Numbered from the stretch's first letter, positions 14,749 to 46,151 are shown. The stretch is DNA of 46,211 bases from a virus (IMGVR_UViG_3300024520_000124:1-46211); one strand, 5' to 3'. Numbers and translations are program-made. Notes: generated by a model from the letters alone, not told the origin.

Positions 14749-15756
14749 ATGCCAGCACTAATTGAACCCAACCAGGTGGGTAAGCGAGAGGCTCTCGCCG
14801 ACACCATCACCACCGCGGACGAAAAGGATCGGCCTTTCAGTGCCATGGTGCCCAAGGAGAAGGCGCGCGTCAAAAACATGCGCCTCGATTGGCAAGCCGA
14901 CAAGTTCGACGCGCCAAACACCTCCGGGGTCGCCGATGGCGTCGATGTCGAGAACTTCGAGAACGCGGCCAAAGACCGCCGGCTCCTGTCGGTCTATGCA
15001 CAGAAATTCAGGCGCACCGCCATGGTCGGCGATGAAGCCGAACATGTCAGCACTGTCGCCGGGGCCCCATCGGAACTGGCGCGCGCGCTCTCCAAGAAGC
15101 TCGAGGAGATCGGTCGTGACATCGAGGGCGCGCTCTGTGGCGACAACGTCACCGTGGCGGAGGTGGACAAGAACACCCCTTACAAGCTGCGCGGTCTGGG
15201 CGATTGGCTCAACAGCTCGGCGCAAACCACGCTGCCGGTGCCTGCGGCCTACCTGACGCCGGCCGCGAGCCTCGAGGATGAGGCGTCGGCCACCTTCACT
15301 GAGGATGGCCACTTCCGGCCGGTGCTCAAGAGCGTCTACACCGAGCACGGCAAGATGGAGTCGATGACCTTGATCTGTGGCACCACGATGAAGGAAACCA
15401 TCACCAACTTCACCCGCGCGCAGCTTGCGACGCCGGACGCCAACACCTTCCGCAGCATTCGGGCGTTCAACCAGAACATCTCCGAAAAGAAGGTCACCAG
15501 CTGCATCACGGTCTACGAAGGGGACTTCAACACCGTCCATGTCATCCCCAGCCTCCTGCTGGACACCGACGGGGACGACGGTGTCTACCGCGGCTACCTC
15601 CTGCCGATGTCGATGTGCCGGCTGTGCTACTACCGCCTGCCGCGCGTGCGACGCCTCGAGGATCGGGGTGGTGGACCGCGCGCCTACGTCGACGCCATCC
15701 TGGCGCTGAAGTATCTCAACCCGCTGCGAGGCGGGAAATTCCACGGCACCAGCTAA
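14749..15756 (+). CDS. Major capsid protein, DUF5309/SU10-like, 335 aa
   Basis: It follows the scaffold gene after a 26-base gap with an A-rich leader. The protein has the layout of DUF5309 capsid proteins: Arg-Glu-Ala-Leu-Ala-Asp, Asp-Arg-Pro-Phe-Ser-Ala-Met, Arg-Leu-Asp-Trp-Gln-Ala-Asp, Arg-Arg-Thr-Ala-Met-Val, Leu-Glu-Glu-Ile-Gly-Arg-Asp-Ile-Glu-Gly-Ala-Leu-Cys. A later Val-Tyr-Glu-Gly-Asp-Phe-Asn-Thr-Val strand pair corresponds to the HK97-type P domain. Length is in the usual 300-350 range. Six Cys residues are unusual for a capsid protein. It forms the icosahedral shell. Confidence 0.8.
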   Translation: MPALIEPNQVGKREALADTITTADEKDRPFSAMVPKEKARVKNMRLDWQADKFDAPNTSGVADGVDVENFENAAKDRRLLSVYAQKFRRTAMVGDEAEHVSTVAGAPSELARALSKKLEEIGRDIEGALCGDNVTVAEVDKNTPYKLRGLGDWLNSSAQTTLPVPAAYLTPAASLEDEASATFTEDGHFRPVLKSVYTEHGKMESMTLICGTTMKETITNFTRAQLATPDANTFRSIRAFNQNISEKKVTSCITVYEGDFNTVHVIPSLLLDTDGDDGVYRGYLLPMSMCRLCYYRLPRVRRLEDRGGGPRAYVDAILALKYLNPLRGGKFHGTS

Positions 15757-15801
15757 GCCGGCTCGCCGACATCGACGTAACAACAAACGAAAGAAAAAAA
15801 T

Positions 15802-16248
15802 ATGTCTACTCGAGCTCAATTCCTGGCGACCGGCGAAGCCGCGTTGGGGAAGTACAACTATCAGGCACGTCATTACCTGGAGGATCTGCAAGGGTTCACC
15901 AGCGGCACTGGCGAAAACCTGCTGACCATCCCGGCTGGGGCGGTCGTGCGGGAGGTGTTGGTTAAGACTATCACCGCCTTGGCGGGGGCGGGTCCGCTGA
16001 CCGCGGCCACCGGCCAAATCGGTGTCACTGGCACCCTGGAGAAGTACATCACTGCCCTCAACTGGGATCTGTTCGCCGCTGGCGACACTTACGTGTTGTG
16101 GGATGAAACAGCGCCGGATCTGTTCACCACTGCCAACCTTATGATCGTGGAATACACCCTCACGGGTGGCACCTGCGCTCAGCTCACGGCCGGGGAAGTG
16201 ATTGTCTTCGCTGACATGGTCAACATCAACGACCTGTTCAGGGCCTAA
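15802..16248 (+). CDS. Probable head decoration/structural protein, 148 aa
   Basis: The gene right after the capsid gene has its own A-rich leader (gaaagaaaaaaat). The product is rich in Gly, Thr, Ala and beta-branched residues and poor in charge. Alternating strands (Thr-Ile-Pro-Ala-Gly-Ala-Val-Val-Arg-Glu-Val-Leu-Val) suit a small beta-barrel decoration protein. The terminator-like hairpin just downstream would let the capsid and this protein be made in excess. Identity is inferred from position and composition. Confidence 0.6.
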   Translation: MSTRAQFLATGEAALGKYNYQARHYLEDLQGFTSGTGENLLTIPAGAVVREVLVKTITALAGAGPLTAATGQIGVTGTLEKYITALNWDLFAAGDTYVLWDETAPDLFTTANLMIVEYTLTGGTCAQLTAGEVIVFADMVNINDLFRA

Positions 16249-16260
16249 GCGCCATCTCAT

Positions 16261-20760: not shown

Positions 20761-21110
20761 AATTACTCGAGGTTCAAGAATTGTTGGGCGCCATCAATCA
20801 GATTGGCAAACTCAAGAGCGCACCCAAGGCCGTCTATGGCCTGGCGCGCAATTTCGCCAGGCTGCGAAGCCTCATGAAGCCCGTGGAGGAGGCGCGCAAA
20901 ACCATCTGGGCCGACCACTTCGGTGAGGACGGTGAGATCAAGCCAGGTGATGAGCGGGTGCCGGCCTTCCAGAAGGAATTCAACGAGGTCCTCGAGGAGG
21001 AGGTCGAGTTCGAGCCATACACGTTCACGCTCGAGATGCTCAACCTCGATGAGAACGAAATGGATCCAAAACTCTTGGGCCTGATCATGCCCTTGATTGC
21101 TGATGGCTAA
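20757..21110 (+). CDS. Hypothetical protein, 117 aa
   Basis: ATGA overlap start. A helical N-terminus of about 45 residues precedes an acidic second half (Glu-Val-Leu-Glu-Glu-Glu-Val-Glu-Phe-Glu-Pro-Tyr-Thr-Phe-Thr). It ends in hydrophobic residues (Leu-Gly-Leu-Ile-Met-Pro-Leu-Ile-Ala). The sequence Leu-Asp-Leu-...-Asp-Pro-Lys-Leu-Leu-Gly is not one I recognise. It overlaps the propeller gene by 8 bases. Confidence 0.65.
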   Translation: MKLLEVQELLGAINQIGKLKSAPKAVYGLARNFARLRSLMKPVEEARKTIWADHFGEDGEIKPGDERVPAFQKEFNEVLEEEVEFEPYTFTLEMLNLDENEMDPKLLGLIMPLIADG

Positions 21111-23706
21111 TCGCCGACCAAGACAGCGCAGTCGCGCCAAGCAAGACGTCGCCCAGCCCGCGGTGGGGGATGTCGAGCTGGGTTTGCTGGGGGTCTCCAT
21201 GCGCTCGGAGCCGCATACGCTCCCGCCTGGCCTGGCGGTATCCGCCATCAACATGCGCTTCACCGAGGGCGTGCCCGAAACCCGACGGGGCACCGTCAAA
21301 CCGCCGTGGGTCAACAAGACCGTTGCCGGCGACGTGCAGCCGTGGGGCACCATCTACGGCGCCGGCGAGTTCAGCGATCCGGTGCTGCTGCAGGCCTACG
21401 GCATTATTGCCGCCGATGGGGCGGTCTACTTCACGCAAGAAAATTCCGGGGCGGTCTCCATCCCGCTGCCCGATGGGGTCTCCATCACCTACCCGGTCAG
21501 GTTTGTGCAGTGCTTCGATGTGCTCCTGATGTTCCGCAGCGAGGATGGCACCGAACGCACGCCGCTGCGCCTGACCTCCATCACTGGCATCTTCGAAGAG
21601 GTGGTCCAGACCACCGTTGCCATCACCCGGGCGGTCAAGGAGGTCGGTGACACAGAGATTCTGGTGACGGTCACCACCTCGGCCAAGCATCGCCGGCTCA
21701 CCAGTAACCGCGTGGAAATCGGCGGGTGCGACCAGGTCGCCTACAACGGTGATTTCGTTATCACCAAGGTCAGCGACTACGTCTTCACTTACACCATCGA
21801 TGCCGACCTGGTGGAGGAGAATTCCGACGATGATGAAACCGATCCCGTGCCGGCGCGCGCCGCCACCGGAGATGACATCCGCATCGATGACAACGGCACC
21901 AACATCATCCCCAATGGGAAGTATGGTCTGTTCTTCCAGAACAGGCTCTTGATCCCCAACGATGCCGATGAAGTTATTGCTTCCGATGAGGGCGACTACA
22001 CCCGCTACGTGCCGGTCCACCGCGAGTTCCGCATCAACCAGGGCAGTGCTGATAAGCTGGTTAGCGTCGACAAATTCAATGACGTGACGGTTGTGTGCTG
22101 GAAAGACCACAGCATCTCCGCGGTGCTCAATATCTATGGCGACCTGAGCGCCATGCAGCAGGATACTCTCACCCGCGAGTTCGGGTTGGTCGCCCAGCGG
22201 AGCGTGGCCCAGGTCGGCAACGAACTGTGGGGCCTCACTGACTGGGGGATCATGGCGGTGCGGCAGACCGATCTGAACAAGCTCCAGGTCAGTCGGGTGC
22301 CGGTCAGTGATGAAATCAAGCCACTCATCGATCACATCAACTGGACCCATGCGAGCGGCGCGCGGGCCGTTCTGCACGACTCCAAGTATTACCTGGCCGT
22401 GCCGCTGGATAGCGCCGAGGTGTTCCGCGATGAGCTCGCGGCCCATCGCACAACTGACGCCAGTATGGATGCGCTGGTGCGAGGCCTGGTGGTGGGTGCC
22501 TCCTATCGCTGGGAACCGCTGGTTGCTGGATCCAGTGGCAGTCCGGATCAGAGCATTAACTTCGGATCCGGCACCTTGACGGTGGCGGGAACGTTTGTGG
22601 CGACGCAGGAAAACTGCACCATCCGGGCGGCCGCCGGCGGGACGCCCTTTCTGACAACCTTGCAGGGCAGTTTGCGGCGAGTGTTCATTGGCGTGAACAA
22701 TGCCATCCTGGTCTACGATCTGTTGACCAAGAAATGGGCCGGGCACGATCAGTCGGTGGGCGTGGAGGTCGTGGAGTTTGTGATCTTGACTTACAAGGGG
22801 CGACGGCGGCTCTTCGTCATCAATCCGGAAGGCTACATCTGGCTCTACGAAGACGGCTACGAAGATGAAATCTCCGAGCCTTACGCCGACCTTGAGATTA
22901 TTGCTACGCCGGTGACCAACACCACCATCACGCCTGGGGTTGGCAGTGCGTTGGTGACCACCGTAGTTGCGGCCGGGAACGGGGTGAACCAGTGGCATCT
23001 GGGGGCATCTCAGGCAGAGGCGGCGCGGTGGGCGTGGGGGAGTCCGGTGCAAGGCAGTTACGGGTGGAACCAGCAGCAGACCAATCCATGGGTGCTCTCC
23101 AATGTCCGCTCTGTCCCCTTGGCCAACGGCGTCAGATTCTATGGGTCTAATGGGGTGTTGCCCAAGATAACGCTTGGAGGGGTGGATACCTCCTGGCTGC
23201 GGGTGACTGAAGTGAGTCAGCAGCCCATTGAGTGTGAGGTGACTTTCCGCGGCATGCCCTCGGCCTACGCCCAGGTGCTGCAGCGGGCTGAGTGGGTCGG
23301 GCTGGACATGGAGACCTGGTGGCCTAAATACAGCGTCTCCATCATTACCCCGGGAGTCGGGGAGGCCACCGAAGTGGTCACCGACCGCACCCGCAGCCGC
23401 GTGGCTTATACGCGGCCCTTCGACGCGGCCGATTGGGATCCGCTCAACACCAACGACGATCACGGCCAGGCACACCGCGAAGACTATGCGTTGCTGCTGG
23501 GTGGCGCCGAGGGTTCGGCCTCGCTCTTGATGGGGGCCAACGGTCTGGATTACTCGTTGCATCAGGAAGTGCGGGACACTATCAAGATTCGGGAGTATGG
23601 GCGAAATGTTCTGGTCAAAGTCACTAACAAACGGGGCCGGATCCGCGTGATGGGATTGCATTACGAGGGCAAGGCGCGTATCAGTCCTGCGGGAAGGGAA
23701 ACATAA
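21103..23706 (+). CDS. Large beta-propeller-like tail protein (nozzle/stabilisation type), 867 aa
   Basis: The start (about 20-75) has Leu-Pro-Pro-Gly-Leu-Ala-Val-Ser-Ala-Ile-Asn-Met-Arg-Phe-Thr-Glu-Gly-Val-Pro-Glu-Thr-Arg. This 'list of variables, then remove the background' pattern occurs in tail proteins of podoviruses related in role to T7 gp12 or P22 gp10. Beta-strand-rich blocks with Phe-Gln-Asn-Arg-Leu-Leu-Ile, Trp-Lys-Asp-His-Ser-Ile and Glu-Leu-Trp-Gly-Leu-Thr-Asp-Trp-Gly follow, as blades of a propeller. The C-terminal 200 residues are another beta domain. I start at the ATG at 21103; a TTG 6 bases earlier is possible. Confidence 0.6.
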   Translation: MANRRPRQRSRAKQDVAQPAVGDVELGLLGVSMRSEPHTLPPGLAVSAINMRFTEGVPETRRGTVKPPWVNKTVAGDVQPWGTIYGAGEFSDPVLLQAYGIIAADGAVYFTQENSGAVSIPLPDGVSITYPVRFVQCFDVLLMFRSEDGTERTPLRLTSITGIFEEVVQTTVAITRAVKEVGDTEILVTVTTSAKHRRLTSNRVEIGGCDQVAYNGDFVITKVSDYVFTYTIDADLVEENSDDDETDPVPARAATGDDIRIDDNGTNIIPNGKYGLFFQNRLLIPNDADEVIASDEGDYTRYVPVHREFRINQGSADKLVSVDKFNDVTVVCWKDHSISAVLNIYGDLSAMQQDTLTREFGLVAQRSVAQVGNELWGLTDWGIMAVRQTDLNKLQVSRVPVSDEIKPLIDHINWTHASGARAVLHDSKYYLAVPLDSAEVFRDELAAHRTTDASMDALVRGLVVGASYRWEPLVAGSSGSPDQSINFGSGTLTVAGTFVATQENCTIRAAAGGTPFLTTLQGSLRRVFIGVNNAILVYDLLTKKWAGHDQSVGVEVVEFVILTYKGRRRLFVINPEGYIWLYEDGYEDEISEPYADLEIIATPVTNTTITPGVGSALVTTVVAAGNGVNQWHLGASQAEAARWAWGSPVQGSYGWNQQQTNPWVLSNVRSVPLANGVRFYGSNGVLPKITLGGVDTSWLRVTEVSQQPIECEVTFRGMPSAYAQVLQRAEWVGLDMETWWPKYSVSIITPGVGEATEVVTDRTRSRVAYTRPFDAADWDPLNTNDDHGQAHREDYALLLGGAEGSASLLMGANGLDYSLHQEVRDTIKIREYGRNVLVKVTNKRGRIRVMGLHYEGKARISPAGRET

Positions 23707-24089
23707 TGGCAGCAACAGTTTTAGTCACAGCGGCGAAAACCTGGGCGGAAACAGAGGATCCGATTGACGCCTCCAAGCTCAATCTGACGGCCACTCCGAC
23801 AGTGGTGGTGACGGTGAACATGTCGCAGATCGATGACACCAACATCACTGCGCCCGACGACAAGGCGCCCTTCGTCTATGACAGTGCCTCTGGCAAGTGG
23901 ATCGATGGCATCGTCGGCCAAGAATTCATTGAAGCCTTCACTGGCGCTGGCGCGGCGGCCGGGACGACCGGTGGTGTCCCTGCACCTGGTGCGGGAGAGA
24001 CCGGGTTCCTCGATGCCACGGGTAACTGGAGTCAGCCCACCGGCGCACAAACTTCCTCCAATCTTTACAACAACCGCAACTTCTTCTAA
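23706..24089 (+). CDS. Small fibre-region protein, 127 aa
   Basis: TAATG overlap start. The pattern Ala-Lys-Thr-Trp-Ala-Glu-Thr-Glu-Asp-Pro-Ile-Asp-Ala-Ser-Lys-Leu-Asn near the start, with a Gly/Ala-rich second half and a Tyr-Asn-Asn-Arg-Asn-Phe-Phe end, is common for phage tail-fibre or appendage pieces. It may be an adaptor that links fibres to the tail. Confidence 0.65.
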   Translation: MAATVLVTAAKTWAETEDPIDASKLNLTATPTVVVTVNMSQIDDTNITAPDDKAPFVYDSASGKWIDGIVGQEFIEAFTGAGAAAGTTGGVPAPGAGETGFLDATGNWSQPTGAQTSSNLYNNRNFF

Positions 24090-28950: not shown

Positions 28951-29778
28951 ATGGCAGTTCGCGATAAACTGGCCAAGACCAACCGCATCATCGATGCGGT
29001 ACTCGAGGCGTATAAGAAACCAGTGCTGATGTGGAGCGCCGGCAAGGACTCGATGGTGTTGGCCTTCATCCTCAAGGGCCGCCACCTCTTGCCGCGCATG
29101 CCGGTTGTCTCTCACTGCGAACCCTACTTTGCTAACAAATATCTCTTCATGCAAAAGATCCGGGCGCAGTGGGGGCTCAAGGTCTATGACTGGCCGCCGG
29201 TGGCCATCACGCTGCAGAAGCCGGGCGAGGCGGTCGAGATCGTCAATCACTACCCCGTCTGTGATGGGCGCACCGTGGCGATCCCCAAGAACCTCTACGA
29301 ACCGGTCGGCCTGGGAACGAAGTCCAAGAAGGTCGAGCCCTTCCTCTGTGGCCTGGTCGATTTCCTGCGCCGGCCACTGGGCGGGGTCGTTCAGTACCCG
29401 TGGGATGTCGTGATCCACGGCCACAAGAGCAGCGACGTCGACCCGGGCATGGGTCCGGTGCCGCTTAAGGCGGATGTGGTTCCCAACATCATGGGTCCAG
29501 CTGGAGCATTCCCGCTGCGAGACTGGACCGACGCGGACATCTGGGAATACACCAAGAGCTTCAAGGTGCCGCAGCAGGAGACCCGGTACGACCTGGAGAG
29601 CGGTGAGGAGCTCGAGGACAAACGTCACAACCCGGATCAATGGGCGTGTTGCACGCGCTGCTTCGATCCTGATGGGCCTGGCAGTATGATGTGTCCGAAG
29701 TTGGGTGTTGAAGTCAGTAACGTCAGCAAGCAAGTCGAATGGCGTGAGCCGGAGCGACCTGATTACCTGGAGAAATAG
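28951..29778 (+). CDS. PAPS-reductase-like / PP-loop protein, 275 aa
   Basis: Residues 29-34, SAGKDS, form the PP-loop that binds ATP or adenylylated substrates in the PAPS reductase/adenosine sulfotransferase-like family. The strand Pro-Val-Leu-Met-Trp lies before it and Met-Val-Leu-Ala-Phe after. A Cys-rich C-terminal part (Cys-Cys-Thr-Arg-Cys ... Met-Met-Cys-Pro) may hold a metal. Family members adenylate or reduce sulfur compounds or modify nucleic acids. It sits inside the virion operon between the internal protein and the next structural gene, an odd place for sulfur metabolism. A moron or virion-associated enzyme is possible. Substrate unknown. Confidence 0.7.
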   Translation: MAVRDKLAKTNRIIDAVLEAYKKPVLMWSAGKDSMVLAFILKGRHLLPRMPVVSHCEPYFANKYLFMQKIRAQWGLKVYDWPPVAITLQKPGEAVEIVNHYPVCDGRTVAIPKNLYEPVGLGTKSKKVEPFLCGLVDFLRRPLGGVVQYPWDVVIHGHKSSDVDPGMGPVPLKADVVPNIMGPAGAFPLRDWTDADIWEYTKSFKVPQQETRYDLESGEELEDKRHNPDQWACCTRCFDPDGPGSMMCPKLGVEVSNVSKQVEWREPERPDYLEK

Positions 29779-29780
29779 TC

Positions 29781-31115
29781 ATGCCATACAATCCTGGAGT
29801 CCAAGACAGGAGCGGCGAGATCTTCGCCAGCTACCTGAATAGCGCTGTGAGTTCGATCGCGGGTGGCATCACGCAGGCCGCCGGCGCCATCAAAGCTCGC
29901 AAGGAAGAGGCCAAGAAGATTAAGAGCCTGGGCAACGCCGCCAACTCCATCATCAAAGAGAACGAGTGGATGCTGGGCAAGATCACCAAGGAAGACTGGG
30001 ACCTCAAAGGGCCGCAGGAGAAATGGGATTTCGTCCAGGCCAAGAGCCAGGCGCTCACGATCAAGGGTCTGCACCAGAAAGGGATGATCCAGACCGACAT
30101 GATGAAGTGGGCCGATGAGGTGCGCCGGCCGGGCACGCCGGGCACGCCAGGTCAGCCGGCGGGTGAAGTTCCTTACTACCTCGATCAGTCTCCGCAGACG
30201 CAGGGATCCTATGCGCCGCAGCCTGACATCGAGGCAGCTTACCCGGCGCGTCGGCTGCCGGCGCCTGAGGCTGGCATGGGATTGCCGAGCACCTTATACG
30301 GTTACGATCGGCCGGGGCCAGGGGCCTCTGAGCGGTCGGCTAAGATTGAAGGCCTGGTTGCACGTCAGCCCGAGGGCAAGCAGAGCGCGATACGCTCGTA
30401 TCTCGAGACCAAATACCCGCCCCGGCTGCAAACGGAGTATGGCAAGCGGGCCATCAGTGGTCCTAACCGGGCGAACTACCTCGCGACGCCACCGCCGGCG
30501 ATCGATGGGCCAGTGCAAGGGCCTCGAGCCCAGCGTGCCTTCACTCCAGGTCAAGGCCGGCCAGTGGTGGGTGCGGCGACGCCGGCAACACCAGGTGGAT
30601 CGGTGGCCAGTGCTGATGCTAAATATCCCAACGCGATTCTGCATGATAACTATCTCAAGGCGGTCACGGCAGCCACCGGTGGCACCCAGGACACGCCGCG
30701 CAGTTATCAGGACCCCGAAACCGGCATCAACTACGTCTACTTCGGTAAGTCGATCCTTGAGGCTGGCCAGTCGATGGATGCCTTGGCGAATGAGGTGAAG
30801 CTGAAGGTCGGTCAAGCCTCTGAGATCCTCCTGGAGGACGGCAGCCCCACGGGCAGTGCGCTGGTCAACGATGGCAAGACGATGAAAGTCATCAAGATCT
30901 CTGAAGACCAGGTGGATTGGAGCCCCTACGACTACAACGGCAACGGCGTCATCGATGAGGGCAAAGAAATTCTGGACGCGCGCAATGCCGCTCGCCTCGG
31001 CCACGGCAAACTGCCGACCGTTGGCATGTCGGTCTCGGCTAAGAAGCGGGGTGGTGGTGGAGGTGGCGCTGTAAGCGATCTTCAGAAATGGCGGGCTCAG
31101 CGTGAGGCGAAATGA
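29781..31115 (+). CDS. Virion-operon protein with an EF-hand-like loop, 444 aa
   Basis: The first 110 residues are helical (Ala-Arg-Lys-Glu-Glu-Ala-Lys-Lys-Ile-Lys-Ser). A long Pro/Gly/Ala-rich, probably disordered stretch follows to about 290, then a small C-terminal domain. Near residues 390-402, Asp-Tyr-Asn-Gly-Asn-Gly-Val-Ile-Asp-Glu-Gly-Lys-Glu resembles an EF-hand or dockerin calcium loop, with Lys at position 12 instead of Glu. A glycine run and Lys/Arg end follow. Likely an internal or core protein. It ends in ATGA with the giant gene. Confidence 0.6.
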   Translation: MPYNPGVQDRSGEIFASYLNSAVSSIAGGITQAAGAIKARKEEAKKIKSLGNAANSIIKENEWMLGKITKEDWDLKGPQEKWDFVQAKSQALTIKGLHQKGMIQTDMMKWADEVRRPGTPGTPGQPAGEVPYYLDQSPQTQGSYAPQPDIEAAYPARRLPAPEAGMGLPSTLYGYDRPGPGASERSAKIEGLVARQPEGKQSAIRSYLETKYPPRLQTEYGKRAISGPNRANYLATPPPAIDGPVQGPRAQRAFTPGQGRPVVGAATPATPGGSVASADAKYPNAILHDNYLKAVTAATGGTQDTPRSYQDPETGINYVYFGKSILEAGQSMDALANEVKLKVGQASEILLEDGSPTGSALVNDGKTMKVIKISEDQVDWSPYDYNGNGVIDEGKEILDARNAARLGHGKLPTVGMSVSAKKRGGGGGGAVSDLQKWRAQREAK

Positions 31116-34100
31116 GTGATGTCCTACAGTGGTATCGCGAGACCCGGCCGACTGAGGTGGCGGGTGTCAGCGATCGCGAGCTCTCGCTCTTCCTGGGGGA
31201 GACTCAGCCGGCGCTCCTCCAGGAGGATAAGGAGTTCGCCGCCGAGTATGGTCACTTCCAGGCCGAGGACACCCGCCAAAAACTCTGGGCACGGGAAAGG
31301 GACGTCCACGAGAAGAACCTGCGGGAGCTTCACCGTGAGTTCGGTGCAGAAGAATCCTTCGCGGCCCGCAAAGCGCACCTGGAAGGGAGTTACCAGGCGC
31401 GCCTCAAGCAGTTAGGTGTCACGCGCTTAAATCCGGAGGAACGGCCCCTCGGTGCGATCGGGCAGGCAGCCAGCCGTGGTGGTAAGGTGCTCAAAGCGGC
31501 CTATCATGACGTCGGTGAGATCGCGCTGGGCTTTGAAACCGATGAGGGAGTGCTGCGTAACCTGCGCAGCTACGCCGAAGATCCCGGGGGGCAGATGCCT
31601 ACCGAGGTCATGGTTCACGGCATGGATAGCAGCATTGCCCGCAGTGCGGCCGTCGGTGGCGGTGCGCTGGTGCACATGTGGCCGACCATTGCCACCGCTG
31701 TCACGCTGGGTCGCTTCGGGATGGGCCATAAGACCGCCAACCTCACCGCCATGGGCTGGGATGAGAGCGGGGACTTCAGTCCAGTGGGCGCGCTGGCGGC
31801 CGTCGGATTGCCGGTGGTCGATAAGATGGGGCGGGCGCTCGTCTCCAAGGCAATCGTCAAACGCCTGCAGGCCACCAAACTGGTGGTGAGTCAAGCGGCC
31901 AAAGGTGAGAAGCCGGTGCTCGATGCCATCCTCAACCGGGCGCCGGCGTTGGAACGGGATTGGGTGAGGCGCACCCTCGAGGTCGGCGGCGGGCAACTAG
32001 CCAACAACATGTTCCTGTTGGCAACTCAAACGCCGGGCATCCTTGAGTCCGACGACCCTAACGCATTAGCGGATGCGATCGTATCCAACCTGGCGATGTC
32101 GCTGATGGGTCTTAAGGAGATTGCCAAGGGCGAGTCGGCCTCACTGCAGCTCTTGCGCAAACGCTTTAATGAGGAGGGAGTCAATGTCTTCGACGTCGAG
32201 ACAGTGCTGAGGCCGGGTAAACTGCCTGATGATCAGCCCAATGCCAAGCCGCCGGTTAAGGCTGAAGGACCAGTCATAGACGTGGAGGTGGAACCGGTTC
32301 CATCCAGACCGGGTAAGCCGCCTCCCGCCGAGGACCGGGCGCCGGTTCCAGTGGAAGCTGAGCCGGCGCCTGTAGTCCCGATCAAGCCGCCCGTCTCTGC
32401 CAGGATCACGCCGGCCAACGTTAGCCAGGTGCTCGCGACCCGGCGGGATGGCGCAGACCCTGATGATCCGCTAGTGACGGCGCTCACCCGCATTCAAGGC
32501 GGCTACCGTTATCTCGAGAATGCTCCACCTGATTCGCCGGCCACGCCTGGCATGGTCCAGATGATCGAGGAACAGCTCGCAGTGGTCGACCGCGCGATGG
32601 AAGCGGAGGCCTTGGCACCGGAGAAGCCAGCCGCTGCGCCTGAAAGCGCGGCTCCGGAGGCTGTGCCAAACGTGCCAATCGTGCCAATCGAGCCGGCTGT
32701 GACGCCTGTGACAGACGTGACAGTCGCCCCGAAACCGGCCGTGGCAGCTGATGTGGCGTTGCGAGAGGGTCTCCTGGAATCTTGGCGTCGCCGGCCTGAG
32801 GTGATGACTGAGGCGGAGATCGACCGGGCCCTTGAGCGGGAGACGGAGCAACGGGATGCCTTCTATAAGTGGGCAGATGAGAACAAGCGGGCGATGGTTC
32901 GCTTTGAGGAGAAGAAGACGAACAAAACGGCAGCTGAGGTCGAGCTCGTCGATTTCAGTGATGGCCAGGTTGGAATGCGGTTGCGATTCAGCCGGGGTGG
33001 GGAAGGAGCGGCAGGGCAAGGTGCGCCGTGGGAATTCTTCCCCAATGAGCAGGAAGCCAGGCAGGAAGCCGTCCAGCAGGCGGAGGACTTCGGTAAAGTG
33101 GTCAAGAGCGACCCTCCTTCGGATGTGAAGCACAAGCGGGCCTGGTTGAAGCGATTCCGGGAGGCGCTCAAGCCGGCAGACAGGCCGGCGCACGAGATGA
33201 CGCTCGAGGAGTTTCAAGCGGCCAAGCCGAAGATCATCAAGCGCTACGGCAACAGCACAGGTCGGCGGTTTGCGGCCGTGCGGATGCCTGATGGGACTCG
33301 GGTGGACGTGCCGACGCGTGGGCCGAGTAAGAAGTCTGATCGGGTGACGACTGATCCGGAGGGCATTGGTGAGGAGACGCGGGTGGGTCCAATCCGGGCA
33401 ATGGCGCATCAGCAGGCCGTGGCGCGCGCTGCCAAGGAAGGGAAAGGCGTTCCGGCACCGCCGGCGAGCGGCACTGAATTCCGCGAGGTCGATCGCGCCA
33501 GGCTCCTGGAGTTGGGGACTGAGTCGGAGACCCGAAAGCTGTCGGATCCGGAGCTCAAAGAGATCTACGGATTGGAGGCGTCGTTGGGTCGCCAGGTGGT
33601 GGTGGCTGTGCGGGAGGCTCAGTTTGCTGCCGCCAAAGCGCGCGGCAACAAGCCGATCACTATTCCGGCGAGAGAGAAGGCGCATTTTGCGGCCATCGCC
33701 AAAGCGGTCAGGGCGGCGTTGCAGGGTGGGCGGCGAGTGAAGTCTGGGGGTGCGGTCCAGCGTGCGATCGTTGAGGGAGTGGAGGACGTGGTTGCCTTAA
33801 CGTTATGGGCTGAGGGGACGGGACCGCGGCCGAGGTGGATCCAGCCCAACGCGGTGGGGGAGGCGCAGCAGGTTAGGATGTTGGCGAGTGCCATTGCGGG
33901 TGAGTTGGTGGACACGGGCAGAATTGATTTCCGCGGCAAGGTAGTTAATGGCACGCAGGATATCGCGTTGGTGGCTCAGGCAGCCCGCAATCCGCGCTGG
34001 GAGGGAATGTGGGCGGTGGCGGTGCGGCGGGGTCTGATCGTGGGGCAGCTTGGCAACACCTCGAGGCTGCCGGGATCCACAGGTTTCCCGCTGGCGCTCC

Positions 34101-37100
34101 AGGGTCAGTTCAAGCGGATGATGGCTGAGCTGGACGCGGATGGCTGGTATCTGGTGCACAACCATCCCAGCGGTGACGCGCGCGCGTCTGATGCCGACAA
34201 GAGCTCTACGCGCATGCTGGCGGCGAGTGCTCCGGGGTTTGTGGGGCACGTCGTGATCAATCACGGTCATTACTCGGTAGTCGACAGGCATGGCGGCGCG
34301 CGGATGCACCGGCTGGCTGATGGCAAGGAGATCTCGGAGTTAAAAAGGTCGAGGGAGCAGGCTAAGGCTGAGGCGGGACCGGATCCACTTATCGGCAACG
34401 AGGGCAACCTGGGCTCGAGGATTGAAGCGGCCAAGGATGTGGCGCGGGTGGCGCGTGATTTCGGTGAGATCGGCCCTAATGGGGTGACGTTGGTCTTTGT
34501 CGATGCCTATCAGCGGGTGCGAGGTGTGGGGCGGGTGACCTTGGAGGATATCGCCGGCGAAAACTTCGGGCACGTACTCAGGGAGCAGGCGCGGAGTCAA
34601 GGCGCGGAAGCGGTCCATGCGTACTATCCTGGCAACCGCCGATCGGCTGGGCGGGTGCTGGAGGTGGCGGTGAGTAAGGGGCTGCTGAACCGGGTTGCGA
34701 CAGAGGATAAGGCGTTGAGTGATCTGCTGGCCTTTACTCCAACCAAGGGCTTGTGGGAAGGGCAGCTGGGCACGCAGGAGGTCTACCGCTTCGCTGAGGA
34801 TGGCGGGGAGCCTGAGAGCCCGGCCTACGTCATCGAGGACGGGGACGCGAAGATTCCGGTGAAGCTGGGTGGCATGGAGTATGTGAAGCACCTGGAGATG
34901 CCTGAGATCCTGCGCATTGCCAAGCAGATGATGGAGCACGGTGGCGGGCGGATTGAAGTTCGGCGCTTGCCCAAGAGCCATGGCCTCTTTTGGAGATCGG
35001 CTGATGGCCAGATCGGGATCCGGATTACGCCGGAGATCTTCCGCGACGTGGTTTACGCGGCGCAGGTGTTCGCGCATGAGGTTGGACATCTGCATGACTT
35101 CCTACCGCTGAACACACTCGCGCACGGCAACATCCTGGGTCGCCTGGCGGGCGTCTTGAAGGTATCGCAGGGGATGTATCCCAAGGATCCTTCCATCTCG
35201 CCGAGTCGGATTCTGACTTCCAAAGAGCGTGGGCGGATCCGGCGTGCGGCCGAGGCTGAGGTGGGGACGAAACCGACGAGCACTGACGAGCAGGTCCATT
35301 GGCGCGCGGCGGTGCGGAAGAAGTATGCGGAGATGATCGAGGCCGAGGCCAAGCGGCGCGGGTTGGTGTTGGCCAAGACGGTGCACGCGAGCTTGCGCGA
35401 CCTCTCGTTCTGGTGGCGGCCGTTGCCTGATGCGCCCTCGGCCAACTACATGAAGTATCGCAACAGCGGCAAGGAGATCTTCGCGGACATGCTCAGCGTG
35501 ATGCTCAATGCTCCTGACCAGGTTGCAGCCAGGTCGCCAGAGGCGTTCGACATGTTCTGGAAGTTCCTGGACAACAAGCCGGAGTTCAAGAAGCACTTCC
35601 TGGCGGTGCAGCGGCTCATGTGGGAGGGGCCGGAATCCAAGGGGGCGCAACGTCTGGCCGACCTGCAGGCCGATGGGATGGAAGGGTCACTGATCATCGA
35701 GCAGGCCTCGCTGCAGCGGCAGCGCAATCGGATCAGCTGGCGCGGACGTTTCAACAACTGGCGCCAGGTGTTGCAGGATCAGTACTGGCCGATCAAGCGC
35801 CTGGCGTTCAAGGCAGAGAAGGCGGGGCTGGTGATTCCGATGGAGCACGACCCGCGACGCATCCTCGAGGAGCTGCCGATGGTGGAGAACGATGCGGCGG
35901 CGTTCTGGGAGGATATGTTTGATGGCACGCTCAAGCCGCTGGAGGACGCCGGCGTGCCGTGGCAGGACTTTGGTATCTGGCTGAACATGCGGCGCATTGC
36001 ATTGGGCGATCGCCAGCCGCATGCCAATAATCGCGGGCATGATCCCAACACGGCCGTGGCGATGATCAATCAGCTGCAGGACGGCTGGAGCACTGCCCAG
36101 CGCAAGGCCGTGGCTTCGGCGGCGAAAAACTTCTACGACATGTTCTTCGCTTTGACGACCAAAGCGCAGAAGGCGGACATCATCTCCAAGCAGGTGTTTG
36201 ATGATATTGTTGTCCCCAATCGCGGCTTCTACGCCACCTATGCCAGCCTGGAGCACTTGAGAGACACGTTGCCGGCGGGGATCCAGCAGCAGATCGGCAC
36301 GCTTGATGGGATTGCCAACGTGTTCGAGGCCTCGATGGTGAAGGCAATGGCGATGATCAACCTGATCAAGATCCAGGAAGCCAAGCAATCGGTGGTGCGG
36401 ATGCTTGGAATGAACTTTCCGGAGGGAGAGATCAAGTGGAAGAAGGGTAGGTTCCTGGCGCCGGGTAGGTTTGCCCCGCCCAGGCCTGATGACGGCAAGG
36501 GGATTATCACGGTCCTCGTCGACGGGAAGAGGGCATACGCGGAGGTGGCGGAGGAGATTGCGATCAGCTTCGAACAGGAGCGCTCAGGCCTGTCCCGGAT
36601 GGTGCACCAAACTGTGGGGGCGATGCATTGGCTTTTCCGCCATGGAATCTACCAGAGCTACATCACGCTCAACCTCGCCTTTCATCCGCGCAATGGCGCC
36701 AAGGATTTCATGCGATCGTGGCGCAGTCTGCCCACTGAGACGGCCGAGAGTCGGCCGCCGGCGGGTATTGGTCCGGTGCGGCCGGGGCGCAAGGTGAGTG
36801 ACGCCGAGGCGTTGGCGATCCAGGCACGGGCCTACAAGGAGGCCTGGGATCATGTCATCAATGGAGTGGAGGGCATTCCGGATCCGGTGATCCGCGCCAT
36901 GCGTGACAATTACGCGATCGGCACCAGCCGGCAGACTCTCAACAGCGGGTGGCGGCCGGCGCCCACGGTGCAGCAGCAGATGATCCGCTTCGGCATGAAG
37001 AAAGACTCGATGCAGCACTGGACTGACAAGAACCAGGTGATGGGCAACCTGGCCGCCTTCTATCGTCGCGTCGAGTTCTGGGGCAACGTCGTCGAGCTAT

Positions 37101-38299
37101 CGCCAAAGGTGGCCGGTTGGATCGCTGAGACTGAGCACTTCGGTCTGGATCCGGTGACCGCCGGCATCCGGGTGCGCAACTACAAGGGCACGCCTAACGT
37201 TTTCACCAAGGGAGTGGGAACGGAGATGATCCGCAACTTCATTCCCTTCTTCAATGTGTTCATGCAGGGCTGGACGAAGGATGCGCAGCTGATTGCCGGC
37301 AAGCCGTGGCCGCCGCGGCCGCAGGCGCCCAGCCTCCCGCCGGCCGATGATGCGATCGATGTGGAAACCACCGTGGCGCCCGATCCTATGCCCAAGCTCA
37401 AGTCGGGTTGGTGGTGGCGGTTTATGAAGACCGATGGCCTGTGGGCGATTCTCAGTGCCGCGGCCGGCGCGAACTTCTTCGGCACAGTGCTCAAGGATCT
37501 CTTCGATGGGGTCTCGAGTCACAAGAAGACCAACGCCAACATCCTGCCGTGGGGCTTCACTGATGGGGGCAGCACCAAGTCAGGTAAGCGCGTTATGTTC
37601 TTCGAGGTGCCGCGCGATGAGACTAGCCGGCTACTGGCGGGGCTGACCTATCACGCCGCCAAAGGGATCTTCGAGGGCAACCCCGACCAGGGCTTCAGCG
37701 ATGCGTTTGACTTTGGTCAGACCGATGTGCCAGGCCTCTCCCCCTTGGTCCGGATCCCGTGGATTATCCCCAGGCAGGATCCGATCGATCCTTGGCGCGG
37801 CCGGCACATCCTGAGCGAGGACGAGCGGCGGGCGGGTGCCTGGAGCATGCCTTCGGTATCGCGGCGCGCCAAGTGGGTCTGGAACGAGTTGGGTGGGGCA
37901 TCTTACTACAAGTTCAACGTCTATGCCAACAGCACCACCGAGATGCTCTTCGAGGCGACTCCCAACGTGATCAATGGGTTGGGTGGCATCACTGATTACG
38001 GCTACGTGGAGCGTGGCCGGCAGCAGAAGGCGCCCGATCAGGAGCGTGACGCGAAGATCAAGCTGGGCTTCAACCGTACCGTTCAGCAGGTATCCGCCGA
38101 GTTCAATGCGCTGAAGGCGGCTGGGCGAGACGGCCGCAGTCCGACGCAGGAGGACCGCTACCAGGACCTGCTCAGTTGGCACGGCAGCTACCGTCGGGAC
38201 TTCGAATATCTACGCTTCCTGCGCGATGCAGGCTACAAGGGTGAATTCCGCAGGGTGGAGAAGGAGCTCGAAGCTTTCACCGAAAACTATTCCAAGTAA
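31112..38299 (+). CDS. Giant polyvalent virion protein with RadC-type JAMM and zinc-metalloprotease motifs, 2,395 aa
   Basis: The largest gene, 7.2 kb. Residues 1-370 are helical, with a glycine-rich stretch around 180-230, and a Pro/Val/Glu-rich linker spans about 370-570. Near residues 1016-1029, HNHPSGDARASDAD matches the RadC JAMM zinc motif His-x-His-Pro-Ser-Gly ... Ser-x-x-Asp. A following block (about 1090-1220) resembles a second MPN-like fold. Residues 1322-1328, HEVGHLH, form an HExxH metallopeptidase site with Asp following. The C-terminal third (Thr-Leu-Asn-Leu-Ala-Phe-His-Pro-Arg-Asn-Gly-Ala-Lys-Asp-Phe) fits the LPD38-type large polyvalent proteins. Such proteins are thought to travel into the cell with the DNA and counter host functions; here this is inference. 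Confidence 0.7.
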   Translation: MSDVLQWYRETRPTEVAGVSDRELSLFLGETQPALLQEDKEFAAEYGHFQAEDTRQKLWARERDVHEKNLRELHREFGAEESFAARKAHLEGSYQARLKQLGVTRLNPEERPLGAIGQAASRGGKVLKAAYHDVGEIALGFETDEGVLRNLRSYAEDPGGQMPTEVMVHGMDSSIARSAAVGGGALVHMWPTIATAVTLGRFGMGHKTANLTAMGWDESGDFSPVGALAAVGLPVVDKMGRALVSKAIVKRLQATKLVVSQAAKGEKPVLDAILNRAPALERDWVRRTLEVGGGQLANNMFLLATQTPGILESDDPNALADAIVSNLAMSLMGLKEIAKGESASLQLLRKRFNEEGVNVFDVETVLRPGKLPDDQPNAKPPVKAEGPVIDVEVEPVPSRPGKPPPAEDRAPVPVEAEPAPVVPIKPPVSARITPANVSQVLATRRDGADPDDPLVTALTRIQGGYRYLENAPPDSPATPGMVQMIEEQLAVVDRAMEAEALAPEKPAAAPESAAPEAVPNVPIVPIEPAVTPVTDVTVAPKPAVAADVALREGLLESWRRRPEVMTEAEIDRALERETEQRDAFYKWADENKRAMVRFEEKKTNKTAAEVELVDFSDGQVGMRLRFSRGGEGAAGQGAPWEFFPNEQEARQEAVQQAEDFGKVVKSDPPSDVKHKRAWLKRFREALKPADRPAHEMTLEEFQAAKPKIIKRYGNSTGRRFAAVRMPDGTRVDVPTRGPSKKSDRVTTDPEGIGEETRVGPIRAMAHQQAVARAAKEGKGVPAPPASGTEFREVDRARLLELGTESETRKLSDPELKEIYGLEASLGRQVVVAVREAQFAAAKARGNKPITIPAREKAHFAAIAKAVRAALQGGRRVKSGGAVQRAIVEGVEDVVALTLWAEGTGPRPRWIQPNAVGEAQQVRMLASAIAGELVDTGRIDFRGKVVNGTQDIALVAQAARNPRWEGMWAVAVRRGLIVGQLGNTSRLPGSTGFPLALQGQFKRMMAELDADGWYLVHNHPSGDARASDADKSSTRMLAASAPGFVGHVVINHGHYSVVDRHGGARMHRLADGKEISELKRSREQAKAEAGPDPLIGNEGNLGSRIEAAKDVARVARDFGEIGPNGVTLVFVDAYQRVRGVGRVTLEDIAGENFGHVLREQARSQGAEAVHAYYPGNRRSAGRVLEVAVSKGLLNRVATEDKALSDLLAFTPTKGLWEGQLGTQEVYRFAEDGGEPESPAYVIEDGDAKIPVKLGGMEYVKHLEMPEILRIAKQMMEHGGGRIEVRRLPKSHGLFWRSADGQIGIRITPEIFRDVVYAAQVFAHEVGHLHDFLPLNTLAHGNILGRLAGVLKVSQGMYPKDPSISPSRILTSKERGRIRRAAEAEVGTKPTSTDEQVHWRAAVRKKYAEMIEAEAKRRGLVLAKTVHASLRDLSFWWRPLPDAPSANYMKYRNSGKEIFADMLSVMLNAPDQVAARSPEAFDMFWKFLDNKPEFKKHFLAVQRLMWEGPESKGAQRLADLQADGMEGSLIIEQASLQRQRNRISWRGRFNNWRQVLQDQYWPIKRLAFKAEKAGLVIPMEHDPRRILEELPMVENDAAAFWEDMFDGTLKPLEDAGVPWQDFGIWLNMRRIALGDRQPHANNRGHDPNTAVAMINQLQDGWSTAQRKAVASAAKNFYDMFFALTTKAQKADIISKQVFDDIVVPNRGFYATYASLEHLRDTLPAGIQQQIGTLDGIANVFEASMVKAMAMINLIKIQEAKQSVVRMLGMNFPEGEIKWKKGRFLAPGRFAPPRPDDGKGIITVLVDGKRAYAEVAEEIAISFEQERSGLSRMVHQTVGAMHWLFRHGIYQSYITLNLAFHPRNGAKDFMRSWRSLPTETAESRPPAGIGPVRPGRKVSDAEALAIQARAYKEAWDHVINGVEGIPDPVIRAMRDNYAIGTSRQTLNSGWRPAPTVQQQMIRFGMKKDSMQHWTDKNQVMGNLAAFYRRVEFWGNVVELSPKVAGWIAETEHFGLDPVTAGIRVRNYKGTPNVFTKGVGTEMIRNFIPFFNVFMQGWTKDAQLIAGKPWPPRPQAPSLPPADDAIDVETTVAPDPMPKLKSGWWWRFMKTDGLWAILSAAAGANFFGTVLKDLFDGVSSHKKTNANILPWGFTDGGSTKSGKRVMFFEVPRDETSRLLAGLTYHAAKGIFEGNPDQGFSDAFDFGQTDVPGLSPLVRIPWIIPRQDPIDPWRGRHILSEDERRAGAWSMPSVSRRAKWVWNELGGASYYKFNVYANSTTEMLFEATPNVINGLGGITDYGYVERGRQQKAPDQERDAKIKLGFNRTVQQVSAEFNALKAAGRDGRSPTQEDRYQDLLSWHGSYRRDFEYLRFLRDAGYKGEFRRVEKELEAFTENYSK

Positions 38300-38338: not shown

Positions 38339-38710
38339 GTGGCCATTGACTACGACGAACTCAGGACAGGTCAAGTTCCGCTCTGTTTCCATTGCGGGAA
38401 CGCGGTAGTTCCGGTGCTGGTCAATAGTGATCAAAAGGGCTACTGCGGCTACCTCAAACTCTTCGCCGGTCATTGCCCGAGCTGCGCGGATTCTATCGCC
38501 TGGAATGTGACGGGAGGCAAATCGCCGTGTTGCGGGGTGCAGCTGACTCACGATCCGGAGGTGGTGATCAAGAATAAGAATCCCTTGGCTAAATGCCCCG
38601 CGTGTGGGACGTGGGTGTGCTTCCTGGTTAAGAAGAACAAATGGATTTCCGCTGGTAAGGCGTTCAGTGCGGAGCAAGGAGGAGAACAGCCTGATGCGTT
38701 TGCAGCGTGA
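38339..38710 (+). CDS. Multi-CxxC zinc-binding protein, 123 aa
   Basis: GTG start at 38339, with AGGAGG only 2 bases upstream, a tight spacing; an internal start is possible but would cut into the first Cys pair. Ten cysteines include C16/C19, C46/C49 and C86/C89, so two or three zinc ribbons are likely. It comes right after the giant gene. Near its end it carries AAGGAGG (38677-38683) that could serve the next small frame. Function unknown. Confidence 0.65.
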   Translation: MAIDYDELRTGQVPLCFHCGNAVVPVLVNSDQKGYCGYLKLFAGHCPSCADSIAWNVTGGKSPCCGVQLTHDPEVVIKNKNPLAKCPACGTWVCFLVKKNKWISAGKAFSAEQGGEQPDAFAA

Positions 38711-39623: not shown

Positions 39624-40028
39624 ATGATACTTGACGAACTTAACAATGCGATGAGTGGGGCCGAGCTGGCCTTGGGCAAACTACGTGCGGTGTGGGATCA
39701 GGCGATGGCGGCGGCGGAGGCGGCGGCAAAGGAGGGGAAGCCTGTCGGTGTGGATGGCAAGCGGTGGGACGGCGGGCTGCCGCTGTGCGGCACCAACTGG
39801 CGGCTCTACTACCTTAAGCACAAGTCGGTGATGCTCTCGCCTGACAAGGAGGGTCGGATCGAGCTGCCGAGCATGGTGACGGTCTCGCAGGCCTCAGACA
39901 TCATAGCGGCGGTTGAAACGGCCGTGCGATCCGGAGTGCGCCAGGGGCGCAAGTCGCGCGAGCGTGAGATTGCGGCGGTGGCGCGCATCATCAACGGCAC
40001 GTGGGAGTTCGAGGAGGAGGGCGCATGA
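39624..40028 (+). CDS. Hypothetical protein, 134 aa
   Basis: ATG 39624 has GGAG 8 bases upstream. The upstream in-frame extension covers the end of the previous gene and is rejected. It has an Ala/Glu-rich helix (Ala-Met-Ala-Ala-Ala-Glu-Ala-Ala-Ala-Lys) and a small alpha/beta core (Lys-Arg-Trp-Asp-Gly-Gly-Leu-Pro-Leu-Cys-Gly-Thr-Asn-Trp-Arg-Leu-Tyr-Tyr). It ends in ATGA with the PAPS-reductase-like gene and may be a partner of it. Confidence 0.6.
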   Translation: MILDELNNAMSGAELALGKLRAVWDQAMAAAEAAAKEGKPVGVDGKRWDGGLPLCGTNWRLYYLKHKSVMLSPDKEGRIELPSMVTVSQASDIIAAVETAVRSGVRQGRKSREREIAAVARIINGTWEFEEEGA

Positions 40029-40852
40029 ATCGGCGCGTTACGGTGTTGAGTTTAGGTGCGGGAGTGCAGTCGTCCACGGTGGCGCTGATGGCGGCGGCTG
40101 GGGAGATCAAGCCGATGCCTGACTTTGCGGTGTTCGCGGACGTAGGATGGGAGCCGGCGGCGGTTTACCGGTGGCTGGATGAGTTGGAGAAGTTGTTGCC
40201 TTTCCCGGTCGTGCGAGCGACGCACGCTGATGGTTTAAGGGCTAACATCATGCGCAGCCTCACTGGCAACCGCTGCGCCGGCGCGCCCTTCTACACCACT
40301 AGCGCTGCCAATCCGGATAAAGGCGGCATGCTGCGCCGGCAATGCACCAAGGAGTTCAAGATCGTGCCGATCATAAAAGCCATTCGCACGCGGCTTGGTT
40401 TCGTTCCTGGGCAACGGGTTAAAGGGGTGAAGGTTACGCAGTGGATTGGGATCAGTCTTGATGAGATATCGCGCATGAAAGACTCCATGCACGGTTGGAT
40501 GGAGCACCGGTGGCCTTTGGTGGATCTGCGCATGAGCCGCCATGATTGTCTGCGGTGGATGGAGACGCATGGTTTCCCGCAGCCGCCGCGCAGTGCCTGC
40601 ATTGGATGCCCATACCGATCGAACGCAGAGTGGCGTGCGATTCGAGCTGTGCCGAGTGAGTGGGCGGATGCAGTCGAAGTCGATCGTGCCGTGCGCCAAG
40701 GGGTGGATGGCGAGAGGATGCCGGGGGTGAAAGAGACGGTGTTCTTGCATCGTGATCTGGTGCCATTGGAGGAAGCTGACTTGGATACGGAAGAGGACAA
40801 GGGGCAGCTATCGATGTTCAACAATGAGTGTGAAGGGATGTGTGGTGTATGA
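40025..40852 (+). CDS. Second PAPS-reductase-like / PP-loop protein, 275 aa
   Basis: ATG 40025 overlaps the previous stop. Residues 9-18, SLGAGVQSST, are the nucleotide loop of the phage and plasmid PAPS-reductase-like family; Gly-Ala-Gly-Val-Gln-Ser replaces the usual Ser-Gly-Gly-Lys-Asp-Ser. The core has Phe-Ala-Asp-Val-Gly-Trp-Glu-Pro. Later come Arg-Gln-Cys-Thr-Lys-Glu-Phe-Lys and the zinc-type Cys-Ile-Gly-Cys-Pro-Tyr-Arg-Ser near residue 195. This is a different subfamily from the 28951 protein. The family is common in mobile DNA, often beside DNA-modification genes, but its reaction is not established. No methylase lies nearby here. Confidence 0.7.
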   Translation: MNRRVTVLSLGAGVQSSTVALMAAAGEIKPMPDFAVFADVGWEPAAVYRWLDELEKLLPFPVVRATHADGLRANIMRSLTGNRCAGAPFYTTSAANPDKGGMLRRQCTKEFKIVPIIKAIRTRLGFVPGQRVKGVKVTQWIGISLDEISRMKDSMHGWMEHRWPLVDLRMSRHDCLRWMETHGFPQPPRSACIGCPYRSNAEWRAIRAVPSEWADAVEVDRAVRQGVDGERMPGVKETVFLHRDLVPLEEADLDTEEDKGQLSMFNNECEGMCGV

Positions 40853-45320: not shown

Positions 45321-46151
45321 ATGAGACCAGAAGGCAAGATCCCGCCAGAGGCGCCAGAGGATTCTGGGCGGTTGTCACCTATTCCCGGATCCAGTCAGGC
45401 CGAACTATTTGACCCGGCAAGCTTGGATGAGACTGCAGAGCGGGAGATCCTGCTGACTGAAGAGCGGCAGGCCGGCTTGAACTATACCGGGGAACGAGTC
45501 GCCAGGAACATACAGCGCTACCGGGCAATTGCAGACGCGTTGGCTGAGGGATTGTCCTGCAGACAGATCGCCAGAGCGTTCAAGTGTCATCACAGAACAG
45601 TCTATGCTGTGAAGATCCGCGAACAGCCGGCTATAGACTCACAGAAGAGAAGTCTGGCGGCAGTCTTCCAGGAAGCCTGCAACGCGACGGGTGAGCGAAT
45701 CCTGGAAGACATCGACCGGATCCCACCGCAAAGCCTGGCAATGACGGGAGCCTTCTGCAAGACGATCGCGGCAGACTTGCGTGGTGACGCATCGATGGTA
45801 GTTGAGCACCGACACCATCCAAGCCTGGCGGCAGTAAAGTCAGGGCTTGAAGCAAAAGAGATAATAGACGTTGAGACCCTGCCGGCTGCACGGGTTGGTA
45901 CGGGTGGGGGAAACGACAATAAGGGTGTGGCCACTGATTCAGATACACCAGCCACACCCACACCAAACCAGCCACCACAGCCACCGCCAGCAAAGCCGGT
46001 CAACCCCAAGTACCACCCACCGCCAACAACTGGTCGGATCGAGCCGACAGACTACGATCACACACCCACACCCCCGCCCACAACACAGACGGGGGGGGGG
46101 GGCTTCGCGAACGCCGCCTCCGCACCCACTGATGGATCCAACCAGACATGA
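45321..46151 (+). CDS. Helix-turn-helix protein with a poly-G-tract tail, 276 aa
   Basis: A helical body holds an HTH near residues 74-93 (Leu-Ala-Glu-Gly-Leu-Ser-Cys-Arg-Gln-Ile-Ala-Arg-Ala-Phe-Lys-Cys-His-His-Arg-Thr). A second helical domain follows (about 100-170, Ala-Ala-Val-Phe-Gln-Glu-Ala-Cys-Asn-Ala-Thr-Gly). The last 80 residues are Pro/Thr-rich and disordered, ending with four glycines encoded by the 12-G tract at 46091-46102. HTH plus oligomerisation domain recalls a small terminase subunit or a transcription regulator. Terminase large lies about 8 kb on after circularisation. Its stop overlaps the start of the first gene. Confidence 0.65.
   Translation: MRPEGKIPPEAPEDSGRLSPIPGSSQAELFDPASLDETAEREILLTEERQAGLNYTGERVARNIQRYRAIADALAEGLSCRQIARAFKCHHRTVYAVKIREQPAIDSQKRSLAAVFQEACNATGERILEDIDRIPPQSLAMTGAFCKTIAADLRGDASMVVEHRHHPSLAAVKSGLEAKEIIDVETLPAARVGTGGGNDNKGVATDSDTPATPTPNQPPQPPPAKPVNPKYHPPPTTGRIEPTDYDHTPTPPPTTQTGGGGFANAASAPTDGSNQT
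46091..46102 (+). repeat. 12-G homopolymer, slippage-prone
   Basis: Twelve Gs inside the 45321 gene, 12 Gs also in the left copy (24-35). One G fewer would keep the frame open through to position 274 of the left end, adding about 70 residues. One more would stop after about 10 residues. Confidence 0.9.

Follow-up and report, generated by a model that had tools for sequence, protein, structure and literature searches.

The window covers the virus record IMGVR_UViG_3300024520_000124 from end to end (46,211 bases). It encodes a giant of 2,395 residues, predicted to be a phage-type polyvalent protein with two metal-dependent sites, one in a RadC-type JAMM domain and one in an HExxH zincin-like domain. 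Comparison with relatives shows a constant carrier behind an exchangeable middle, which in this protein holds the RadC-type domain and a degenerate JAB-like domain. Two features by which phage-type polyvalent proteins are recognized were found, namely several unrelated domains in one phage chain and domain swapping among relatives. The initial annotation had proposed a polyvalent protein with these activities, and the conservation of both motifs and the predicted RadC fold support it. It is probable that the protein is packed in the capsid and ejected with the DNA, its RadC cargo helping the incoming genome.

31112-38299, + strand: giant polyvalent protein, 2,395 aa (open frame, ATGA overlap, GAGG upstream, collinear homologue L076)

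The open reading frame (ORF) is exactly as first annotated and runs through 2,395 codons uninterrupted by a stop. Its ATG shares bases with the upstream stop (ATGA at 31112-31115), and GAGG lies shortly 5' of it at 31104-31107. The giant protein of another phage, L076, is collinear with residues 892-2357 (E 6.5e-142), and the multi-domain layout is therefore not due to chance; the capsid protein of that phage is 42% identical to the one encoded here. With 7,188 of 46,211 bases, the ORF occupies 15.6% of the record; the earlier figure of 15% of the genome holds for the record, which, like the other viral records, is metagenomic and may be a fragment; no terminal repeats were found in its 46,211 bases.

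33935-34327, + strand: RadC-type JAMM domain, residues 942-1072 (PF04002 E 1.5e-5; model matches 2QLC)
34001-34003, + strand: JAMM glutamate E964 (conserved in 62 of 63 modules, the other having a gap)
34157-34198, + strand: JAMM core HNHPSGDARASDAD, residues 1016-1029, with H1016, H1018, S1026 and D1029 (each in 63 of 63)

RadC is the sole Pfam family matched across the whole protein: PF04002 aligns at residues 1006-1050 with 25.3 bits, above the gathering score of 22.1. The conservation counts come from an alignment of 63 modules, comprising this protein and 62 modules from viral contigs. An AlphaFold2 model built from 46 sequences has a confident RadC core, and in Foldseek it matches RadC crystal structures (2QLC) with E of about 1e-6 to 2e-5 and a target template-modeling (TM) score of 0.68-0.76; these structures outscore every deubiquitinase JAMM. 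The complete RadC JAMM motif reported initially is thus present, and the annotation had named in advance conserved motif residues and a predicted fold as its check, both of which were found for RadC. The TIGR00608 model of the RadC DNA-repair family scores 21.7 bits, far below its curated cutoff of 133.85; judged by these profiles, the module is a domain of the RadC type and not a RadC orthologue.

The JAMM architecture would also suit an isopeptidase that strips ubiquitin-like conjugates set by host defense (CBASS- or Bil-like systems). Foldseek returns bacterial BubCD and JAMM deubiquitinases as well (E 2e-3 and weaker), and the desampylase and PADLOC JAB models give weak matches in L076. 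Yet RadC is the best structural match by three orders of magnitude in E, and RadC-type JABs have been argued in the literature to be without a ubiquitin-tail groove. We regard this assignment as unlikely.

34409-34711, + strand: second JAB-like domain, degenerate and without its metal ligands, residues about 1100-1200 (model topology; profile-profile match)

The region directly after RadC has the same order of strands and helices as RadC in the AlphaFold2 model. Profile-profile comparison of the two aligned 70 columns with E of 2.2e-6 and 2.5e-5 in the two directions and scores of 32-36, against a maximum of 18 for 19 control tiles of the same protein family. BLASTP of the two domains against each other gave no match, so that the likeness is detected by profiles alone. 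The HNHPSG stretch of RadC aligns to AYYPGN in the second domain, and the metal-binding histidines have therefore been lost. The plasmid JAB proteins that match the RadC module appear to reach into this second region too. A catalytic JAB accompanied by a dead JAB partner is familiar from other MPN systems, and by analogy we infer that the second domain may be such a partner of the RadC-type JAB.

34889-35551, + strand: zincin-like metallopeptidase domain, residues about 1260-1480, at the start of the constant carrier (26 relatives aligned; helix-strands-helix-helix in the model)
35075-35089, + strand: HEVGH, residues 1322-1326 (H, E, G and H each in 26 of 26)
35474-35476, + strand: glutamate E1455, predicted third zinc ligand (26 of 26)
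35756-37489, + strand: helical body of the carrier, residues 1549-2126 (hhalign 550 columns, E 1.5e-28; model)
37490-37816, + strand: LPD38-like region, residues about 2127-2235 (four relatives match PF18857 at the corresponding position, below cutoff)

The constant carrier spans residues ~1230-2370, about 1,100 residues, and consists of the zincin, the helical body and the LPD38-like region. The HExxH site of the initial annotation is conserved: H1322, E1323, G1325, H1326, L1327, D1329 and E1455 are invariant among 26 divergent carriers. In the model, the zincin region runs helix, three strands, helix, helix, the order described for polyvalent zincins, and the arrangement by which these zincins are defined, an HExxH helix with a glutamate in the second helix, agrees with the conservation of these residues in 26 of 26 carriers and with the order of elements in the model.

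The LPD38-like end proposed for the protein stands as distant homology. PF18857 matches four relatives at the equivalent place, below cutoff, with E of 4e-6 to 6e-4. A profile of the 26 carriers, compared by hhalign with the C-terminal parts of six proteins with true LPD38 (JC1 gp69 and five viral-contig proteins), aligned over 550 columns with a probability of 99.8 and E 1.5e-28, a stretch that covers mostly the helical body immediately N-terminal to LPD38. A Foldseek search of a viral structure library matched proteins labelled LPD38 or "large polyvalent protein associated domain", the best at E 6e-19. Because of these weak matches in relatives, the profile homology and the structure matches, "LPD38-like" is a fair label, while LPD38 proper is not established. 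Two weak hydrophobic stretches lie at 1734-1752 and 2109-2127; a membrane channel was considered and rejected, as these are insufficient for such a call.

The separation of carrier and cargo emerges from the relatives. A total of 50 viral loci were found via the zincin stretch, their complete proteins mostly of 1,500-4,200 aa and all with HExGH, and residues about 1230-2370 are collinear with them. In a Pfam scan of 17 proteins, the region before the carrier held SNF2, Eco57I methylase, strawberry-notch helicase, ART-PolyVal, GGDEF, ddrB-ParB and radical SAM domains; one of the 17 had RadC, with the same E-value as this protein's. L076 and L094, from a separate search with the RadC module, combine RadC with the same carrier. 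RadC occurs in three of the 26 aligned carriers, on separate branches; on the carrier tree these three require at least 2 changes on well-supported branches, and therefore at least two gains or losses of RadC. That RadC belongs to the carrier throughout the family was ruled out, with 0 genuine matches among 27 carrier-found relatives (one match, in a 46-residue frame, was below cutoff).

31112-32176, + strand: N-terminal region, residues 1-355, common to L015 (blastp L015 E 7e-15; isolated query 2e-9)
32192-32791, + strand: proline/alanine-rich linker, residues 361-560 (18% Pro, 15% Ala)
32792-33811, + strand: residues 561-900 (no Pfam match, no homologue among the fetched proteins)

This protein and that of L015 have residues 1-355 and the carrier in common, but the middle of the L015 protein is a helicase. 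Two further observations concern the cargo. At L094:3897-15209, a single 3,771-aa protein unites radical SAM and RadC with an ADP-ribosyltransferase-like stretch and the zincin carrier. At L087:7830-9170, the C-terminal 90 residues, after RadC, are about 40% identical to sequences of phages F116 and pT24, of Caulobacter phages (where the annotation is lysis protein) and of others; by this comparison they form a further putative swappable module.

RadC modules were found within about 60 very large viral-contig ORFs, mostly of 1,000-5,500 aa. A two-sequence alignment retrieved nothing as a query, and the search worked after two Treponema plasmid proteins were added. LPD38 scored above cutoff in 6 of the 36 records searched, positioned inside the same giant ORF as RadC. 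Phage capsid genes are present in the records of RadC giants: PF13252 in G046 and PF17236 in G055, both with RadC and LPD38, and PF17236 in G038, the record of L076. The tree of RadC modules is poorly resolved, with this protein's module on a long branch, and the nearest annotated relatives of the module are encoded by plasmids, of which one or more are conjugative.

In Iyer et al. 2017 (PMC5512222), RadC in polyvalent proteins is described from conjugative elements only, and no report contradicting this was found in the open literature. RadC with a putative dead JAB partner in phage-type giants is new and lies outside this described range. With the queries used, none of 50,697 GenBank phage records yielded a cultured phage with a RadC module, which may explain why the combination was overlooked. 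Matches of the L087 query in cultured phages had been candidates and were discarded, having matched another part of the query.

Exact 8-residue patterns gave no close relatives in viral contigs, and tblastn at 1e-5 gave none among GenBank phages; weaker matches led to a Pelagibacter phage and a Nitrosomonas plasmid. Among cultured phages, the nearest relative comes from Pelagibacter phage EXVC032P Baldr (OQ414636), a protein of 2,329 aa that is collinear over zincin and carrier (E 8e-19); it differs in having no RadC motif in its sequence and a marine host, and is annotated as hypothetical. WP_107787995, a JAB protein of the conjugative Nitrosomonas plasmid, is related over the RadC module (34% identity, E 8e-14) as well as the stretch that follows it, but is a stand-alone 368-aa gene directly after a gene for a zincin-like metallopeptidase. 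With the phage-type polyvalent proteins of PMC5512222 this protein shares the giant multidomain build, the HExxH zincin-like domain, the LPD38-like end and exchangeable enzymatic domains; it differs in the presence of RadC, in the lack of a direct Pfam LPD38 match and in the dead second JAB-like domain, of which no description was found there.

14749-15756, + strand: SU10-type major capsid protein (PF17236 E 7.5e-36)
28951-29778, + strand: PAPS-reductase-like gene, upstream (phrog_424 E 2.6e-6; PF01507 E 0.0012, below cutoff)
29781-31115, + strand: 444-aa gene, positional counterpart of the JC1 virion protein gp68 (JC1 order PAPS reductase, virion protein, giant protein)

A parallel in a described virion is the DarB-like protein gp69 of Burkholderia phage JC1, counterpart of Bcep22 gp75 (PMC9144972). 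Its body is homologous as far as the point where LPD38 begins, the HExxH-type motif HEAFH lies ahead of the body, and its gene has the same position, following those for a PAPS reductase and virion proteins. Unlike the present protein it has 4,515 aa, lytic transglycosylase, methylase and helicase parts, a full LPD38 and no reported RadC; the DarB-like methylase/helicase core had no corresponding Pfam match in this protein. Mass spectrometry detected JC1 gp69 in purified virions with 51 unique peptides, the most in the table (PMC9144972). A tblastn search of the fetched JC1 stretch showed no sequence match between the 444-aa gene and gp68. The source was ruled out as a Bcep22-like phage, having an SU10-type capsid where DUF4043 is reported for JC1, and no gene of the window matches the fetched JC1 stretch (tblastn). 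The giant gene is the last of the structural block, which fits the earlier description of a late protein, and tf, SCYZ1 and BA6, phages whose capsids belong to this family, encode large virion/particle proteins of 900-1,000 aa in the last structural slot. The N4 virion RNA polymerase (PMC12633501), an ejected giant, has its HExxH site ahead of a large helical domain, a likeness of domain layout; there is no RNA polymerase here, and the carrier found no significant match in the PDB.

The position and virion detection of JC1 gp69, the slot proteins of the capsid family and the likeness to N4 suggest that the protein is ejected with the DNA, and by this homology and position virion packaging and ejection are likely. 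The giant protein would be packed inside the capsid and enter the host along with the DNA. After entry, the zincin may cut the chain and free the cargo from the carrier. Self-processing by zincins to release cargo has been proposed for polyvalent proteins (PMC5512222), and the constancy of the zincin across all cargoes fits this idea; as part of the carrier, it may process the giant protein itself. The RadC module would then act as a metal-dependent hydrolase aiding survival or start-up of the incoming genome, its target being most likely nucleic acid, nucleotides or protein conjugates of host defense.

Since the RadC module also occurs on plasmids, which face the same entry problem, protection or counter-defense is as likely as attack on the host. 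A task shared by phages and plasmids at DNA entry, either survival against host defense or early take-over, is the simplest reading. The "anti-host weapon" of the initial annotation was too specific: the zincin belongs to the carrier, and the RadC module, which plasmids also have, is one exchangeable cargo among many. A bolder extension is conceivable, although on balance doubtful: the RadC/pseudo-JAB pair could be a widespread virion-delivered JAMM hydrolase of uncultivated phages and plasmids that disarms host defense as the DNA enters, for instance by acting on a nucleic-acid signal or stripping off ubiquitin-like conjugates, and would then form an undescribed class of injected counter-defense.

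Several points weigh against the proposal of an ejected protein with a helpful RadC cargo. Virion location and activity rest on homology. G965 and W967, next to the JAMM glutamate, depart from the consensus (T and R in most modules), and nucleic acid, nucleotide and isopeptide all remain candidate substrates. A PDB search with the zincin model ranked a zincin first at a non-significant E of 0.77, so that the check set beforehand is answered for this domain by conservation and secondary structure and not by the fold match. Pfam LPD38 (PF18857) has no match in this protein up to E 10, and here the initial claim found no direct support.

A mainly structural ejection protein, comparable to T7 gp16 or the helical part of the N4 virion RNA polymerase, would place the carrier in or docked to an ejection channel, with enzymatic sites that are accessory or decaying. 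The 900-1,000-aa particle proteins in this slot are consistent with it, as is the helical body being the largest conserved part. Both the JAMM and HExxH residues are nevertheless kept far above background, and the cargo domains are exchanged as enzymes and not as scaffolds, which makes a mainly structural role quite improbable. A role in virion assembly, as a prohead or portal maturation protease, would suit a metallopeptidase whose gene closes the late structural block, but is very improbable given that the remote counterpart JC1 gp69 is found in mature virions with the highest count of unique peptides and that the exchange of DNA-directed and signaling enzymes fits poorly.

The genes of the record include a DnaB-type helicase, the large terminase, the SU10-type major capsid protein and an integrase, which makes a temperate tailed phage the probable source. 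The order of its genes is similar to podovirus structural blocks; the phage is probably short-tailed. Besides the weak PAPS-reductase-like gene upstream of the giant gene, a strong one lies downstream at 40001-40852 (phrog_424 E 6e-46). The 123-aa ORF at 38339-38710, right behind the giant gene, has only weak zinc-ribbon matches (best E 0.014). The 225-aa protein of 43557-44234 matches phrog_2554 (E 8e-61) solely over its C-terminal portion, positions 295-518 of the 529 in the profile, and is perhaps a shortened member of it. A ParB-like partition protein match at 45321-46151 (phrog_1033 E 1e-4), in the same record as the integrase, has a homologue near the carrier of L012. Antisense open frames at 21085-23715 (-, 876 aa) and 14758-16260 (-, 500 aa), opposite + strand genes in a genome of 60% G+C, are probably a composition effect and not genes. 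Host assignment was dropped, the ten genome-collection loci all being metagenome-assembled genome (MAG) contigs from scattered phyla. The contigs of these carrier proteins (L145-L154) were assigned to Planctomycetota, Bacteroidetes, Dojkabacteria, Geobacter and other MAGs and are probably mis-binned or integrated phages.

Giant, probably ejected proteins occupy a large share of many phage genomes, and their cargo is mostly unassigned. Telling the constant carrier apart from the variable slot makes the cargo readable across the whole family. What RadC does is under dispute even in E. coli; it now joins the enzymes that phages appear to deliver at entry, and the function of RadC-type JAMM domains becomes testable in an infection setting. 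One stated difference between phage and plasmid polyvalent proteins is thereby removed.

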